From: Bacteroidota bacterium
GTDB taxonomy: Bacteria; Bacteroidota; Bacteroidia; AKYH767-A; OLB10
Direction: 5' to 3'
DNA: 39,134 bases
Assembly (NCBI GenBank): GCA_024643795.1
Contig: JAHEMF010000026.1
Location: 1-39,134 of the forward strand
Below, in pieces: positions 19,486-26,914 of the stretch. The position numbers and the translations under genes were made by a program. Below the pieces are notes generated by a model. It ran no database searches. It had not been told where the DNA came from and worked only from the letters and a program-made list of their open reading frames with translations. Each line of letters opens with the position of its first letter. The first letter of the stretch is position 1.

Positions 19486-20007
19486 ATGAACACTAAACTA
19501 AAACTTGTATTAATAATTGGAATCATACTAGTATCAAACCAAATAATTATGGCGCAGGAAACCAAACCATGTCCTTGTTGCAGTGAAGAATATAATCAAT
19601 TCGATTATTGGATAGGGAACTGGGAAGTTTATGATACATCCGGCACGAAAGTGGGCACCAACAACATAGAAAAATTAATGGACGGGTGTATTGTAAAAGA
19701 AAACTGGACATCAACAGGCAAGCATAGAGGCACCAGCTACAATTTTTATAACCGGACAGATAAAAGTTGGAACCAGATCTGGGTTGATAATCAGGGAACT
19801 GTTCTTGATCTGAAAGGCGAATTAGTTAACAAGGTAATGACACTCAAAAGTGCGCAAACTAAAGATCAAGAAGGAAATGTCATCTACCATCAGATCACCT
19901 GGAAGCTACAAAAAGACGGCTCAGTAATCCAGATTTGGGATGTAATTGATGCGCAAGGCAATGTTAAATCAAATTTGTTTACCGGGATATACAGAAAGAA
20001 TAATTAA
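19486..20007 (+). CDS. Exported DUF1579-like protein
   Basis: The 173-residue protein has a Sec signal peptide ending IIMAQE. After a short CPCC segment comes FDYWIGNWEVYDTSG, the usual opening of the DUF1579-like lipocalin-type fold, followed by GCIVKENW, SYNFYNRTDKSWNQIWVD and SNLFTGIYRKNN. Proteins of this type are common in Bacteroidota and are generally predicted to be periplasmic ligand binders, with no tested role. The 3' end overlaps nosY by four bases on the opposite strand. Confidence 0.7.
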   Translation: MNTKLKLVLIIGIILVSNQIIMAQETKPCPCCSEEYNQFDYWIGNWEVYDTSGTKVGTNNIEKLMDGCIVKENWTSTGKHRGTSYNFYNRTDKSWNQIWVDNQGTVLDLKGELVNKVMTLKSAQTKDQEGNVIYHQITWKLQKDGSVIQIWDVIDAQGNVKSNLFTGIYRKNN

Positions 20008-20771
20008 AGATCTTTCCTGTCGAAAATCCTGATACTTAGAAAAACAGGGAGGGCTATCCACACGTTCATCACCAGGAATGAAAATAGCATTCCTTTAAAG
20101 TGCCCGAAATAATCGAGATACACAGCTCCAGTATAACCCATCATAGCAGATACATCTAATCTTATCAGCATAAAAATGCGGGCTAAATCAACCGGATTAA
20201 AATGTGAAAGTATAACAATTACCGGCTCGATCGGATAATCACTGAATGCAAACAATACAAACATGATCATTCCATCATACATGATCGTGAAGAATAGCCA
20301 TACTAGTATTGACGCTCCAATTCCACGTGACTTATCCTTTGTCATTACAGAGCATAAAAATGCAAGAGATGCAAACACAATGGTTATCATGAATCCGGAT
20401 ATAAGAACCGAAAGACCGGATTGAGTAGGATTGAATATTGAAACCGGCACCCCAACTCCAATTAAAAATGAGATCGCCAAAGAGAGTGTTACTCCCAGAA
20501 ACTCTCCCAGTATAATCAACTTTCTGCTAATAGGTTGAGCTACCAGCAACTCCATAAATTCATATGAATTATAATAATGAATTGTTGTAAAAATGATACT
20601 TACAAGAGGTATAATTATCAAATTAATATTGACTATGCTTAATGTGCTTTTAGCAGGATTTTCATCTAGCATGTACAAACTAAATGTTATAATGAATAAA
20701 AATAAGGTATAGGCAACAATCACCTTACTTCTTAAAATGTCTAATAATATGTAACGAATGATCTTAAGCAT
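20004..20771 (-). CDS. nosY: NosY, ABC permease of the nitrous oxide reductase maturation system
   Basis: This 255-residue protein has six predicted transmembrane helices, beginning with IIRYILLDILRSKVIVAYTLFLF, and an ABC-2 type permease layout. In the NosDFY complex it forms the membrane channel, with NosF as ATPase and NosD as periplasmic partner, needed to build the copper sites of nitrous oxide reductase. Its start overlaps the nosF stop by eight bases. It is the last gene of the operon, running into a convergent gene with a 4-base overlap and no clear hairpin. Confidence 0.85.
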   Translation of the reverse strand: MLKIIRYILLDILRSKVIVAYTLFLFIITFSLYMLDENPAKSTLSIVNINLIIIPLVSIIFTTIHYYNSYEFMELLVAQPISRKLIILGEFLGVTLSLAISFLIGVGVPVSIFNPTQSGLSVLISGFMITIVFASLAFLCSVMTKDKSRGIGASILVWLFFTIMYDGMIMFVLFAFSDYPIEPVIVILSHFNPVDLARIFMLIRLDVSAMMGYTGAVYLDYFGHFKGMLFSFLVMNVWIALPVFLSIRIFDRKDL

Positions 20772-21477
20772 ATATAAGATTCTTCATGATAGCAGCCACC
20801 GCCTTCGGAAGTGTCCTTTCATTAGTTCGTTCTAGTAATTGCTGCAGGGTTTCAAACAATACAACCTCACCTTCATTAAGATATACAACATGGCTTGAAA
20901 CATCCTGAAGATCGCTTAGAATGTGAGATGTTACAATGATCAATCTGTCTTCTCCTGCTTCTTTTTGTATTTTCTCTTTTAAAATTTCGGATGACAACGG
21001 ATCCAGTCCAGCTGTAGGCTCATCAAGGATTAAAATTTGAGATCTGAAAAGAAATGCAAGGCAAGCGCTGACCTTTTGCCTAGTACCTCCTGAAAGAGAT
21101 CCTATACTTTTGTGATAAATCTGATTCAATCCATAAGCTTCTATCAATTCATCATCATAACCATCCATAGGTTTTCTGAGGCTCTTCAACAGGTCAACCA
21201 CCTGACCCACCCTCATCGTGTCAGGGTAGCGACCGATTTGGGGCATATATCCGATAAAATCGCGACACCTGAAATCTTTGAGTGCATTAATACCATTTAA
21301 AGTTACTGTACCTTGAGATGGTCTTACGATTCCCAAAATGATCTTGAGTAATGTGGTTTTGCCCGAAGCGTTAGGCCCAAGCAATGAGACACATGAGCCT
21401 TTCTCGAGATTAAGATTTACTCCATTAAGCACCTTTAATTTACCAAACTGCTTGTGCAGATCATTGATTTCAATCAT
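20764..21477 (-). CDS. nosF: NosF, ABC ATPase of nitrous oxide reductase maturation
   Basis: The 237-residue protein has all the ABC ATPase motifs: Walker A GPNASGKT (34-41), Q-loop MPQ (78-80), signature LSGGTRQKV (128-136), Walker B ILILDEPTAGLD (148-159) and the H-loop TSH (183-185). It powers NosDFY, which supports copper cluster assembly in periplasmic NosZ. The start overlaps the nosD stop by eight bases and the stop overlaps nosY, so the three subunits are translationally coupled. Confidence 0.9.
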   Translation of the reverse strand: MIEINDLHKQFGKLKVLNGVNLNLEKGSCVSLLGPNASGKTTLLKIILGIVRPSQGTVTLNGINALKDFRCRDFIGYMPQIGRYPDTMRVGQVVDLLKSLRKPMDGYDDELIEAYGLNQIYHKSIGSLSGGTRQKVSACLAFLFRSQILILDEPTAGLDPLSSEILKEKIQKEAGEDRLIIVTSHILSDLQDVSSHVVYLNEGEVVLFETLQQLLERTNERTLPKAVAAIMKNLIYA

Positions 21478-22693
21478 GAGTGTAAGGTCTCAAAAGTGGC
21501 TTGGTATCAACCAAATCAACTGGTGTAATGCTAGGCATTATCTTTTCCATTTGTTCAAGTAGTGTTACAATAAAACTACGATATAATATCATTGCAACCG
21601 GTATTCGTTCTACAATTACAGAATATACACTTACAGGATAATATGGCACATCACCTTTTTGATCCTTATCAAGATCATAACCGGAGTACTTATCCCAATA
21701 ATTTTCATTAAAAGTATTCATAACTGCTGTACCATTTGTAGTAATATCAAAAGTATTTGCTACATAGTTATTTCTTGTTATTACATTATCACTGCAACTT
21801 GCCTGTATTTTCATTGCCCATCCATTTCCGGTAAAATTATTATTGTTAACCTGGATTCGGTTCGATTCTTCCATTGTAATCGCGACAGTATTATTACTGA
21901 ATGTATTTCCTACAATGTAGCTATCGGTAATATCTTTCAATAGCAGTCCATATGAGGATATTCCCTGATTATCTACAAACCGATTATTGGTCATTTTTAC
22001 ATTTTTTGTATACATAACTGCAACACCCGCTCCATTGCTTCTAAAGATATTATTATCATACGTATTGTTGTGTGAAAACATAAAATGAAGTCCGTATCGT
22101 ATATTCTGCAAACTTTCATTGTTCAATACCTGAATGTTTGTTGCAAATTCAAGATAAATACCATCACGATTTCCTGAAACATGATTCCCTTTAATAATAA
22201 AATTATCTGATTTCCACAGATGTATGCCATTTCCGGATTTCGTTTCAGTTGATCTGGATGAAATTACAGTACTATTTTCGACCCGGCAGTTTTTGGAATT
22301 CGAAAAGTATATTCCAAAAAAGCAGTCTCTAACTTCACAATTGAGGATTTGTACTTCTGAACAGTTTTTTATCATTATCCCTGCCAGATCATTATAGCTT
22401 GAGTATCCAGAATTGATGATCTTTATTCCTTGTAATATAACCTTATCAGAAGTAATTGTGAGTACATTATCCTTATTCATGCCATTAATGACCACATCAC
22501 CTACACCGATCATCACCAATGGTTTGTCAATGATCAATCCTGTTTCATCAAAAGTGCCCTCTTCAAGAAAAAGTGTATCTCCTGATTTCGCATTTTGGAT
22601 TTTAAGTTGAATAGCCGATCCAATACTGGCAAATGCTGCCTGCAAAGACAGCACTTGAATTAAAATAACCAAATAATATTTCATTATTCTCAT
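21470..22693 (-). CDS. nosD: NosD, periplasmic maturation protein
   Basis: The protein has 407 residues; the start at 22693 overlaps the preceding stop as ATGA, although an ATG at 22684 gives a cleaner signal peptide (MKYYLVILIQVLSLQAAFA). From about residue 45 it is a right-handed beta-helix (PbH1 repeats): GIKIINSGYSS, GIYFSNSKNCRVENSTV, GIHLWKSDNFIIKGNHV, GIYLEFATNIQVLNN and GVAVMYTKNVKMTNN. This is the periplasmic NosD subunit that takes copper from NosL to NosZ. The gene lies directly after the NosL fusion and before nosF. Confidence 0.9.
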   Translation of the reverse strand: MRIMKYYLVILIQVLSLQAAFASIGSAIQLKIQNAKSGDTLFLEEGTFDETGLIIDKPLVMIGVGDVVINGMNKDNVLTITSDKVILQGIKIINSGYSSYNDLAGIMIKNCSEVQILNCEVRDCFFGIYFSNSKNCRVENSTVISSRSTETKSGNGIHLWKSDNFIIKGNHVSGNRDGIYLEFATNIQVLNNESLQNIRYGLHFMFSHNNTYDNNIFRSNGAGVAVMYTKNVKMTNNRFVDNQGISSYGLLLKDITDSYIVGNTFSNNTVAITMEESNRIQVNNNNFTGNGWAMKIQASCSDNVITRNNYVANTFDITTNGTAVMNTFNENYWDKYSGYDLDKDQKGDVPYYPVSVYSVIVERIPVAMILYRSFIVTLLEQMEKIMPSITPVDLVDTKPLLRPYTHD

Positions 22694-23724
22694 TCCCGAC
22701 TAGCAATATCTTGCTCACCTCCGATCATGCGTTCAGGATTTCTTTCAACCTTGACCGCACCCAGGTTATTCATGATCTCAATACGCTGATTCTCGTTTTT
22801 AAAAGCTGCGATATTGCCTCCCATAGGACTCCTGATTGTTCCATTACCGGCAAAATAAGCAACAGTTTCAGGAAACAACTCGCCTGTGATATAATCAACT
22901 ACATAAAATGTATGCACCTTTGACAGCTCTATTTTTCCATTGTCAACAAACTGATCCATACATATTAAATCATCAAATTTTATTGCTTTTCCGGTCTTAA
23001 GGATGATCTCACTACCGAACCTATTATCCATGATTAACATTTTACAATGCTGACATTGGTCTTTACCAAGAATAATATTTTGAGGTTCAACGGAACATGA
23101 AGATAAAGTGATTGATAAAAGCATGCAACCAGCTAAACTAACGGCTGTCGTATTTTTCAAAATTCTCATTTTTTTCCATTCTAAAAATGCTGCAGTTACT
23201 AACAAGAGATCACAGAACACAAAAGACCATCCACCAATGTCAGGAATTGAAAATGCTCCGAAATTTAAAAGCAACTTGTATCCTATTAAAGGGGGCTGAT
23301 ACGACATTCCTGGGACTTGAATTGGTGCGGTTGGATCAAGGTTATGCCCATAATCATACTCCCACATATAAAAATCAACCATCGCAACTATTCCAAAAAG
23401 GATCATGTAGCCAACAAAGGCAAATAGCAAGCCTCGTTTACCTATTAAAGCCGTCAATAAGCCAAATACAACTGAAAATGCAATAATGTATGGCAGTATT
23501 TTAAACTCAATGAAATCTTCAGTATGCATAGTGGCCATACCAATGTAATGATTAAGACCATTGATCACGTCGAAGTCTCCACCTAAACCATTAATATGGA
23601 TAAGCATTACTAAACCCTCAGGATATTGCGGTGCGGTTAATTCTATCCGCCAAAGTGGATATAAATATGTGAGTAATAATGAAAGTGAAGCTAAAGCTAT
23701 TAATATGCGTGATAACCGACTCAT
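22690..23724 (-). CDS. nosL: Membrane domain-NosL fusion protein
   Basis: The 344 residues make two parts. Residues 1-185 hold about five transmembrane helices with the conserved-looking segments LYPLWRIELTAPQYPEGL and NGLNHYIGM. Residues 186-344 are a full NosL copper chaperone: a lipoprotein signal (MRILKN...LSSC, Cys210), then the Cu(I) site D-Q-C224-Q-H-C227-K-M, RFGSEIILKTGKAIKFDDLICM and SPMGGNIAAF. NosL delivers Cu(I) to NosD for NosZ. NosL is normally about 150-190 residues on its own. An ATG at 23169 starts the NosL part and could also be used for internal initiation. It follows nosZ across a 65-base gap holding a hairpin. Confidence 0.85.
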   Translation of the reverse strand: MSRLSRILIALASLSLLLTYLYPLWRIELTAPQYPEGLVMLIHINGLGGDFDVINGLNHYIGMATMHTEDFIEFKILPYIIAFSVVFGLLTALIGKRGLLFAFVGYMILFGIVAMVDFYMWEYDYGHNLDPTAPIQVPGMSYQPPLIGYKLLLNFGAFSIPDIGGWSFVFCDLLLVTAAFLEWKKMRILKNTTAVSLAGCMLLSITLSSCSVEPQNIILGKDQCQHCKMLIMDNRFGSEIILKTGKAIKFDDLICMDQFVDNGKIELSKVHTFYVVDYITGELFPETVAYFAGNGTIRSPMGGNIAAFKNENQRIEIMNNLGAVKVERNPERMIGGEQDIASRE

Positions 23725-23789: not shown

Positions 23790-25775
23790 TTACTTGGGTT
23801 GGTCTTCAGCTAAATCCCCTAGACTGAAGGTAATTTCAGGGTTACTTCCTGCAGGGAATACCCTGATGTATCCTTGCATTTCCTGATGTAATGCGGAACA
23901 GAAATCTGTACAATAAAAAGGAACCACTCCAGCTTCCTGCGGGATCCATTTTAAGGTTGAAGTTTCTCCAGGCATGATTAGTAATTCTGAATTTCTGGCC
24001 CCTTTAATAGCGAATCCATGAGGGATGTCCCAGTCTTGTTCAAGGTTGGTTACGTGGAAATATACTTCATCACCAACCTTAACTCCTTCAATATTATCGG
24101 GAGCAAAATGTGAACGGATAGAAGTCATATAAACATGAACTTTATTTCCTTCGCGAACCACTTTGGCTTCTTTCTCACCCTTAGCAACATAAGGATGCAT
24201 ATTCTCTTCAATTTTATAAAACTTCTTAGAATTCCCTTTAATAAGTTCAGCAGGACAAGCAATTCCGTAGTGCGGCTCTCCTATTGTTGGGAAGTCACTA
24301 AGTAATTGCATTTTATCTCCAGTAATATCATAGAGTTGTGCGCTCTGAGTAAGTTCAGGACCTGTAGGTAAATATCTGTCTTTAGTGATCTTATTATAAG
24401 CGACCACATATTTTCCAAATGGCTTAGCTGATCCTCCACCGGGAACACAAAGGTGACCGATAGAATAATAAGTTGGAACCCTGTCAAGAACCTGAAGATC
24501 GCTTACTCTCCATTTAACAATTTCAGATGACACAAACATGGAAGTATAAGCATTTCCTTTATCATCAAATTGGGTGTGAAGTGGACCTAGGCCAGGTTTT
24601 TGAACTTCACCATGCAATACTGCATCGTAGCTTAAAACTGGTATTCCCTGATATTCTCCATCAAAATTTTTCTCTTCTATTGCCTTTATCATTTTTGAGA
24701 ATGAAAATACAGGCATAACTGCTGCAAGTTTACCACTTCCAACAATGTATTCACCTGTTGGATCAACATCAACTCCGTGCGGAGATTTTGCACATGGCAT
24801 AAAATAAACCATATCAGGAACTTTTGTTGGATCCAATACCAATACTTCATTCATCATGGTAGAAGTTGCAGAATGCGTCTTATCATCCCAAGTATTATGC
24901 GCGTATTTAGCGGGCCACTTTTCTCCCTTACCTGCAGCGATATATTCTTCAGCTTTTTTCCAGTTGACTGCTATAATAAAATCCTTATCGCGCTGCGATG
25001 CATTTACTTCTTTCAATGTATTAGCTTGCTCGCTGTTATAACATGAGAAGAATGACCAATCTTTGCTAGGGCCTCTTCCTGAACGGCTCAGATCAAAATC
25101 CATACCTGGCATCAGTATCTGGAAACCAATACTCATATTTCCAGATGTAGGATCAACCTTTATGAACGTGATAGTGCCTTTGAAATTTTCTTTGTAAGAT
25201 TTTATTGGCACATTAGTATTATTACCTAATGGTATACTGAACCGGGTTCCTGCTACCACATACTCGGTGTTTGCAGTTACGAACGGGGAAGAGTGATTAC
25301 CCGCACTATTAGGGATCTCTATTATTTCTTCTGTTTTAAAAGTAGTTAATCCAATTCTGGCTACTCGTGGTGTATTATTTCCATTAATAAACACCCATCG
25401 TCCATCTACTTCTGCATTGGTACATGAGAAATCAGGGTGATGTGCATCATCCCATGGAATAAAGCCATGAGAAGTGTTCAACATTGGTTTAGTTTCTTCT
25501 GAAAAGCCATAACCTTTTTCAGGATCTACGGAGAAAACCGGAATGCTTCTGAACATTCTGCCCGATGGCAAGCCATAAACAGAGAGTTGACCGTTAAAGC
25601 CACCGGATACAAAGTTGTAAAACTCATCGTATGTACCGGGCGCAACGTAAACTTTAGATGCTGCATCACCGGATGCAGCTGTTTGAACTGTTTGAGGCTT
25701 ACAACCCCATTGAATTAAAATGGCTGAGACCGCAATTATCATCACAGAAACGCTTACTATTTTATTTTTTTTCAT
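23790..25775 (-). CDS. nosZ: Nitrous oxide reductase, clade II, Sec-type
   Basis: The 661-residue enzyme reduces N2O to N2 in the periplasm. The signal peptide is Sec-type with a lipobox-like IQWGC (Cys25), not a twin-arginine motif, which marks clade II. The CuZ histidines appear in DAHHPDF (H112, H113), GNHSSPF, SPHGVDV, GPLHTQF and GEPHYGI. The CuA domain at the C terminus has H586 in IPHGF and C622-x3-C626-x3-H630-x2-M633 in FYCTDFCSALHQEMQG. The length matches clade II enzymes. It is preceded by a cytochrome c lipoprotein (gap 23 bases) and followed by maturation genes, so it is the core of a seven-gene operon. Confidence 0.97.
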   Translation of the reverse strand: MKKNKIVSVSVMIIAVSAILIQWGCKPQTVQTAASGDAASKVYVAPGTYDEFYNFVSGGFNGQLSVYGLPSGRMFRSIPVFSVDPEKGYGFSEETKPMLNTSHGFIPWDDAHHPDFSCTNAEVDGRWVFINGNNTPRVARIGLTTFKTEEIIEIPNSAGNHSSPFVTANTEYVVAGTRFSIPLGNNTNVPIKSYKENFKGTITFIKVDPTSGNMSIGFQILMPGMDFDLSRSGRGPSKDWSFFSCYNSEQANTLKEVNASQRDKDFIIAVNWKKAEEYIAAGKGEKWPAKYAHNTWDDKTHSATSTMMNEVLVLDPTKVPDMVYFMPCAKSPHGVDVDPTGEYIVGSGKLAAVMPVFSFSKMIKAIEEKNFDGEYQGIPVLSYDAVLHGEVQKPGLGPLHTQFDDKGNAYTSMFVSSEIVKWRVSDLQVLDRVPTYYSIGHLCVPGGGSAKPFGKYVVAYNKITKDRYLPTGPELTQSAQLYDITGDKMQLLSDFPTIGEPHYGIACPAELIKGNSKKFYKIEENMHPYVAKGEKEAKVVREGNKVHVYMTSIRSHFAPDNIEGVKVGDEVYFHVTNLEQDWDIPHGFAIKGARNSELLIMPGETSTLKWIPQEAGVVPFYCTDFCSALHQEMQGYIRVFPAGSNPEITFSLGDLAEDQPK

Positions 25776-25798: not shown

Positions 25799-26284
25799 TT
25801 ATTTTACTCCATCATTTTCTCTCATAAACTCCAGAACAGCAAAAGCATCTTCATCAGATAGGTTTTGGTTTGGCATTCTGATCAGACATTCTTCAAGTTG
25901 TGCTATAGCTGCCGGATCTTTGCTAAGCATCTCATCAACATTGGTGACAAAATTCAAGATCCAGGTAGGTTCTCTTCTTGATGTTACTCCATCCCATGAA
26001 GGGCCAACCAATCGAGGACCGGAGAGCTTGTGGCAGGACGAACATTTCAGTTCATATACGTCTTTACCCGCACTTGCAAGCTTTACATCTAATGTGGGAC
26101 TCACAACAACATCTTTAAATTTTCCAATACCTTTTGAGTAATCTTCTTCATTTTCAACAGGAGTTGATTCTGTTGCAGATGCAGTACTTTTATCTGGGTT
26201 ATCGGAAGTAGCGGGTTCATTACCTCCACATGATATAAGCATCATGAAGGCCGGAAATGCTAGAGCAGTTATTAATTTTTTCAT
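25799..26284 (-). CDS. Monohaem cytochrome c lipoprotein of the nos operon
   Basis: The protein has 161 residues from MKKLIT at 26284; a longer frame to 26320 would run into the preceding gene and spoil the signal. The lipobox is LISC (Cys19). An acidic Ser/Thr/Glu-rich linker (20-55) precedes a class I cytochrome domain with haem motif C81-S-S-C-H85, RLVGPSWDGV and axial Met137 in IRMPNQNLSDED. Tethered beside NosZ, it is the likely electron donor to the CuA site. It sits 11 bases after the fasciclin gene and 23 before nosZ. Confidence 0.9.
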   Translation of the reverse strand: MKKLITALAFPAFMMLISCGGNEPATSDNPDKSTASATESTPVENEEDYSKGIGKFKDVVVSPTLDVKLASAGKDVYELKCSSCHKLSGPRLVGPSWDGVTSRREPTWILNFVTNVDEMLSKDPAAIAQLEECLIRMPNQNLSDEDAFAVLEFMRENDGVK

Positions 26285-26294
26285 TTTTAGGGAT

Positions 26295-26861
26295 TTATTG
26301 AGGTAGTAATACTTGATCAACTACATGGATCAGCCCGTTAGATGCTTCAACTGTTCCAATTATATTAGCTCCATTAACTTTTACCTGATCACCATTTTTG
26401 CTTATAGTAATCATACCACCATTCACCATTTCAAGTTTTTGACCGTCACGTAGGTAATCAGTTTTTAACACAGCAACAGCTACATGATATTGGAGAATGT
26501 CTGAAAGCTGGTCTTTATTTTCAGGCTTTAAAAGGTTGTCCACAGTGCCTGCAGGTAAAGCATCAAAAGCAGCATTAGTGGGTGCAAAAACCGTAAATGG
26601 TCCTGCATTCACTAACACATCCACGAGCCCTGCAGCCTGCACTGCTGCAACCAATGTTGAATGATCAGCCGACCCGGAAGCGACTTGTACAATATTTTTT
26701 TGTGATTCATCATCCTGAACACTTGATTGACCAGCAGGTAAAGGAGTATTTACGTCCGGTGAGCCTGTAGATTGTTCAGATTGTTGTGGGTTGTTGCATG
26801 CCGCAAATAGAAAAAAAGATGCCACCGCAACAAATGCCGTGCCTTTTAGATAGTTCTTCAT
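26295..26861 (-). CDS. Fasciclin (FAS1) domain lipoprotein, first gene of the nos operon
   Basis: The protein has 188 residues from ATG at 26861. A longer frame to 26894 is rejected because its start codon lies inside the -7 promoter element. The lipobox is LFAAC (Cys22). A single FAS1 domain covers about 55-188, with the landmarks GPFTVFAPTNAAFDALPAGTV (shortened: TVFAPTNAAF), ILQYHVA, VNGANIIGTVEASNG and IHVVDQVLLP. FAS1 domains mediate adhesion and protein-protein contact. Its place as first gene, 11 bases before the cytochrome, suggests a role in the Nos complex or its regulation, but none is established. Confidence 0.85.
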   Translation of the reverse strand: MKNYLKGTAFVAVASFFLFAACNNPQQSEQSTGSPDVNTPLPAGQSSVQDDESQKNIVQVASGSADHSTLVAAVQAAGLVDVLVNAGPFTVFAPTNAAFDALPAGTVDNLLKPENKDQLSDILQYHVAVAVLKTDYLRDGQKLEMVNGGMITISKNGDQVKVNGANIIGTVEASNGLIHVVDQVLLPQ

Positions 26862-26884
26862 GATTGTTAATTTTTTGTTAAGAC

Positions 26885-26892
26885 CAAAGGTC
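26885..26892 (-). promoter_or_regulatory. -7 element of the nos operon
   Basis: The minus strand reads GACCTTTG, one mismatch from TAnnTTTG. It would place the transcription start near 26880 with a leader of about 20 bases before the fasciclin ATG. No -33 TTG is present, as expected for an activator-dependent promoter. Confidence 0.5.
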
Positions 26893-26914
26893 ATTGAGAA
26901 TCAGCAGGGTTAAC

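Follow-up and report, generated by a model that had tools for sequence, protein, structure and literature searches.

Hein (2017) and van Spanning (2011) are cited in PMC9697520 for a fusion of the membrane protein NosB to the copper chaperone NosL in Dyadobacter fermentans. In the excerpts of PMC9697520, NosB is fused to NosL in D. fermentans and the same NosB-L architecture is inferred for Flavobacterium, with Flavobacterium azooxidireducens, F. denitrificans, F. crocinum, and D. fermentans as members, and the stretches LNHYIGM and YGHN are given as conserved in NosB; an internal lipobox, an internal start, and repeated fusion are not discussed in these excerpts. This was the only paper on a NosB-L fusion found in the open-licence PMC literature, where a search for "internal lipobox" retrieved no paper. 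NosB on its own is essential for N2O respiration in Wolinella succinogenes (as cited in excerpts of PMC9697520 and PMC13274427), in which it is a polytopic membrane protein of a clade II nos cluster and is not joined to NosL. A different NosB fusion, NosB-NosC2, is mentioned in the excerpt of PMC11409646 and has a c-type cytochrome as partner. The NosL proteins of Paracoccus denitrificans and Shewanella denitrificans are free lipoproteins with an N-terminal signal peptide, are predicted at the outer membrane, and have as hallmarks a lipobox Cys, a CXM motif, and one further invariant Met (PMC6530538, in the part available; 7og7, 7osf). Structures of NosL bound to NosDFY are also available (PDB 7osf, 7osg, 7osj, 7znq).

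The window, by which we mean the whole analysed stretch of 39,134 nucleotides, contains a genuine NosB-NosL fusion gene in a clade II nos operon (Table 1). Both domains lie in a single uninterrupted frame encoding 344 amino acids with zero internal stops, in agreement with the initial annotation, which had joined an N-terminal membrane domain to NosL in one frame; the codon of M186 indeed lies at 23169, and the lipobox ...SITLSSC in the frame translation ends in Cys210. Chance is not an explanation for this arrangement because 50 distinct loci (window included) hold it in one frame. As in the published NosB-L proteins, the two domains are found between nosZ and nosD and carry LNHYIGM and YGHN (motifs from the excerpts of PMC9697520), whereas the window belongs to a different lineage from Flavobacterium and Dyadobacter, and its protein shares at most 50% identity with any of the other 49 fused rows in the alignment. 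The type of fusion is thus already known and the window adds another member. The start codon of nosD overlaps the stop codon of nosBL. Immediately upstream of nosZ, and on its strand, are genes for a fasciclin-domain protein (PF02469) and a cytochrome c (PF00034) (window 25799-26894, minus strand).

Table 1. Positions of the fusion gene, its parts, and the neighbouring nos genes in the window.
Feature	Position	Strand	Remarks
nosBL (NosB-NosL fusion gene)	22690..23724	(-)	344 codons plus stop, one open frame
NosB domain, residues 1-192	23149..23724	(-)	model, mean pLDDT 97; motifs as in PMC9697520
Linker, residues 184-210	23095..23175	(-)	basic n-region, hydrophobic h-region, lipobox ending at Cys210
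Internal ATG (Met186)	23167..23169	(-)	in frame; preceded by GGAAAAAA
NosL domain, residues 210-344	22693..23097	(-)	Cys210, C227-x-M229 motif, Met301
nosZ, clade II (Sec-dependent) nitrous oxide reductase	23790..25775	(-)	upstream; TIGR04246, 935 bits, cut-off 625
nosD	21470..22693	(-)	downstream; TIGR04247, 410 bits, cut-off 300
nosF-type ABC ATPase	20764..21477	(-)	PF00005; named by operon position
nosY-type ABC permease	20004..20771	(-)	PF12679; named by operon position

The membrane domain is assigned to NosB of clade II nos clusters by its motifs, LNHYIGM at residues 57-63 and YGHN at residues 125-128, and by its place between nosZ and nosD. Within these motifs, N58, Y60, G62, and M63 are invariant among 149 NosB domains, and H59 and H127 are conserved in at least 90% of them; the invariant M63 and the two conserved histidines leave metal or b-haem binding by NosB possible. 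CxxCH is absent from every NosB-bearing frame in 197 loci and these frames therefore encode no c-type haem site, which also rules out a NosB-cytochrome fusion of the NosB-NosC2 type. Profile databases were of little help in naming the domain: the fused window protein had no NCBIfam match at E <= 0.1, its 50 relatives gave weak NCBIfam matches in a few cases and none to NosB, and the NosB part of the window protein had no Pfam match at gathering score. Among seven plasmid matches to NosB, six are labelled hypothetical protein and one stands in an unannotated record, and no relative was found in the viral contigs scanned. The initial annotation was right about a true fusion; the domain that it took for a possible Cu transporter or quinol-linked domain is better named NosB.

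For the topology of this domain we used a model of NosB alone (149 sequences, mean pLDDT 97); the two alignments prepared for folding, A2 and A3, contain 143 and 149 rows from the sampled loci. Four transmembrane helices are predicted at residues 3-20, 73-94, 97-127, and 163-191, together with a periplasmic beta-sheet of five strands. This corrects the five-helix membrane domain described initially, as the supposed fifth helix is predicted to be NosL's own signal helix.

The arrangement of helices and sheet in the model, obtained with high confidence, suggests a claudin/TARP-like architecture of NosB without detectable sequence homology. Like the animal claudin, TARP, and GSG1L proteins, the NosB model combines four transmembrane helices with an extracellular sheet, and with either model the best structural entries were claudins, AMPA receptor-TARP and GSG1L complexes, and a designed claudin. 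In VIA, the 50 rows listed for NosB alone were all claudin, AMPA receptor-TARP/GSG1L, or designed claudin entries (Z 8.9-10.8), and the top values (Z up to 10.8, 152 residues, 4.5 Å) are of a size that can reflect a common arrangement. Foldseek scores for NosB alone were moderate, with a best E of 3.3e-3, none at or below 0.001, and TM by query length of 0.39-0.48 in the 50 rows listed; DUOX1-DUOXA1 is also present in the Foldseek lists. Unlike the folds, the sequences gave no sign of a relationship. The NosB profile matched no claudin chain among PDB sequences at E <= 10 (one irrelevant match, E 2), and Pfam scans of the 149 NosB domains returned scattered weak matches to 38 families, with no claudin in the 25 that were listed. 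The claudin profile PF00822 matched nothing in the window's genome (E <= 10). Across 21 genomes, this one included, it gave matches below the threshold in 10, never on the nosB contig; such matches mean little, since they also occur in 5 of 14 control genomes. On these searches we rejected claudin homology by sequence. No paper linking NosB and claudin in a nitrous-oxide context was found among the open-licence PMC matches listed, judged by titles and abstracts.

The second domain is NosL. The Pfam NosL profile (PF05573) recognizes the window protein narrowly (24.3 bits vs. a gathering score of 24) and matches 48 of the 50 fused members at E <= 0.01, and the modelled C-terminal part aligns with the NosL crystal structure 7og7 (Z 13.7, 118 residues, 2.6 Å, 20% identity). 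C210, C227, M229, and M301 are invariant in all 50 fused proteins, so that the window protein has the lipobox Cys, CXM motif, second conserved Met, and fold of P. denitrificans and S. denitrificans NosL (PMC6530538, in part), with C227 and M229 as the candidate Cu(I)-motif residues. The difference lies in the signal peptide, which is N-terminal in those proteins and internal here.

We placed the fusion among its relatives with loci from one genome scan, from searches of the own genome, family, order, and phylum, and from 100 fetched stretches (102 further matching genomes minus G027 and G085). In the phylum sample, any match was found in 132 of 395 genomes. The resulting 197 loci hold 183 distinct NosB sequences (window included, 14 duplicates dropped), which comprise 50 fused and 117 split genes, 15 without a NosL match beside NosB, and one with frameshifts (L026) that is left out of the 50 and 117. 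The split form is the commoner one in this sample, which is non-random, since the fused protein served as query for much of it. L030, among the 15 without a NosL match, is cut off by a contig end, and five others of these (L193-L197) have the C-terminal tail HRKAYKPFY in common. The membrane partner thus also exists as a separate neighbour of nosL, as anticipated in the initial annotation. In all 27 loci longer than 8 kb among L001-L033, nosZ is upstream and nosD downstream; this is one and the same place in the operon, where either the fused or the split form can stand.

On a quickly computed maximum-likelihood tree (168 NosB+NosL rows, 167 gene pairs after pruning of L026), the fused and split states must have switched at least 22 times, compared to a mean of 43 and a minimum of 35 in 200 shuffles. 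When branches with SH-aLRT below 95 were collapsed, 15 switches were needed, against a mean of 33 and a minimum of 26 in the shuffles. Rooted at the midpoint, with the root inferred to be split, the tree implies 11 to 16 separate fusions by parsimony. A two-rate model (lnL -71.7, L026 counted as split) describes the states better than fission-only (-76.4) or fusion-only (-83.8) models. On the tree, the window protein stands apart from the other fused proteins as a separate fused lineage, and the row at the shortest distance from it is a split pair (L072). The nosB/nosL stretches of L027 (labelled Ignavibacteriae) and L028 (Desulfobulbaceae) are very similar, which may be due to a contaminated metagenome bin or to transfer.

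At the join itself, the window reads GGAAAAAAATGAGA, an A7 run (23175 to 23169) that continues into ATGA, in which the last base of the run is the A of ATG 23169 and the TGA lies in another frame. Because the join sits on this run, the fused frame depends on its length, and a single base too many or too few in it, or slippage there, could turn a true pair of genes, split with an ATGA overlap, into an apparent fusion. An overlap of 4 bases is the commonest spacing of the split relatives (27 of the 110 with an identified NosL ATG; in the other 8 of the 118 loci not in one frame, none was identified). However, such runs are not special, with 19 runs of at least seven A or T in the window and identical-base runs of at least six bases in 19 of the 50 fused linkers, and the fusion is also present in isolates (e.g. 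L004, L005, and L007) and in single-contig genomes (G056, G096, G325, and G211). The isolates and single-contig genomes rule out sequencing error as a general explanation, and we consider a misread or slipping A7 run at the window join very improbable. The initial annotation had proposed that close relatives with two separate genes would imply an error at this site; both states were seen (117 split vs. 50 fused), and the split relatives do not imply an error at the window because fusions also occur in the isolates and single-contig genomes.

The segment between the two domains has the features of a lipoprotein signal peptide, with n-region, h-region, lipobox, and Cys all present in the middle of the protein. 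Across the 50 fused proteins, residues 184-208 are variable (entropy about 2.3-3.9 bits), whereas Cys210 has an entropy of 0 and is preceded by Ser, Gly, or Ala in 48 proteins; the exceptions are Asn in L076 and Arg in L086. Lys and Arg are the commonest letters in the n-region ahead of the hydrophobic segment, and the hydrophobicity is below the threshold of 1.0 in four fused proteins (L002, L085, L086, and L104; 0.82-0.99). A complete lipoprotein signal peptide has thus persisted mid-protein across at least 11 inferred fusions. The same search of the split pairs found a Cys after a hydrophobic stretch in 108 of 117 (five under the threshold) and none in the other nine (L108, L113, L114, L117, L119, L133, L135, L156, and L172) in the stretch searched; the NosL proteins of these nine may be anchored otherwise or start differently.

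How an internal signal peptide is used can be read in several ways. One reading is that this genome makes two products, the full-length NosB-L and a NosL that starts at ATG 23169, which follows GGAAAAAA, a plausible context for a start, and opens a typical-looking lipoprotein signal peptide. Among the 50 fused linkers, 14 contain an ATG, and counting GTG and TTG as well (the start codons scored, in the stretch that begins where the NosB match ends and stops 12 residues short of the Cys) gives 27. The 36 genes without an ATG, 23 of which have none of the three codons, rule out internal initiation as a general mechanism, and for the window genome itself we regard it as quite improbable, so that the initial suggestion of two products from one frame fails for the group and is conceivable here. 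Of the three options raised initially (a true fusion, internal initiation, and processing at the internal lipobox), processing has the best comparative support, with C210 in all 50 fused proteins amid a variable linker.

We therefore lean, somewhat above even confidence, towards a NosB-NosL precursor that is lipidated at Cys210 and probably cut there to give NosB and a lipid-anchored NosL. In this sequence of events, NosB (residues 1 to about 191) would insert as a four-helix inner-membrane protein with both ends inside and its beta-sheet in the periplasm, and the basic stretch after helix 4 would stay cytoplasmic. The old signal peptide of NosL would then re-enter the translocon and bring NosL into the periplasm, Lgt would attach a lipid to Cys210, and signal peptidase II would probably cut before this residue. 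This would yield NosB and a lipid-anchored Cu(I) chaperone in a 1:1 ratio at the same spot beside NosDFY, and the gain from the fusion would lie chiefly in fixed stoichiometry and co-insertion, not in a new function. Within the fusion, we infer lipidation with more assurance than cleavage by signal peptidase II, which is probable because lipoproteins normally mature that way. Several observations count against this reading: the unusual residues before the Cys in L076 and L086, the four fused proteins of low hydrophobicity, the good placement of an internal start in the window, and the narrow Pfam NosL score of its protein.

The conserved lipobox speaks for lipidation more than for cutting, and the product could stay joined. 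In such a stable fusion, helix 5 and perhaps the lipid on Cys210 would hold NosL in one piece with NosB at the inner membrane, where it would be kept from the outer membrane and hand over copper beside NosB and NosDFY. The single frame in 50 loci, the 23 fused genes without ATG, GTG, or TTG in the linker, and the NosL-NosDFY complexes (7osf, 7osg, 7osj, and 7znq), which fit work at the inner membrane, are consistent with this. A stable fusion, however, needs no Cys that is invariant in 50 of 50 proteins and preceded by a small residue in 48, and the inferred return to two genes (fusion-only lnL -83.8 vs. -71.7) suggests that the covalent linkage is dispensable. We consider the uncut form rather unlikely. 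It would contradict an outer-membrane NosL in these species, which the cut precursor would not.

What the window and its relatives add to the known NosB-L fusions is the repeated fusion and splitting of the two genes, the invariance of the internal lipobox, the rejection of internal initiation as a general mechanism, the predicted four-helix topology of NosB, and its claudin-like model. A fused and split set with a conserved lipobox bears on the question whether lipoprotein maturation can free a domain from a polytopic membrane protein. For NosB, both electron transfer and copper handling come into consideration, and the latter is favoured by its recurrent joining to a copper chaperone; at least at birth, the fusion would place NosL beside NosB at the inner membrane. 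If the claudin-like model holds, NosB would resemble a subunit for docking or scaffolding more than a transporter or cytochrome. Taken together, we tentatively suggest, as a possibility short of probable, that NosB is a bacterial claudin-fold scaffold and NosB-L a lipoprotein polyprotein that arose at least 11 times by parsimony and is lipidated and cut at its internal lipobox by the ordinary machinery, which would leave scaffold and chaperone side by side in a 1:1 ratio.
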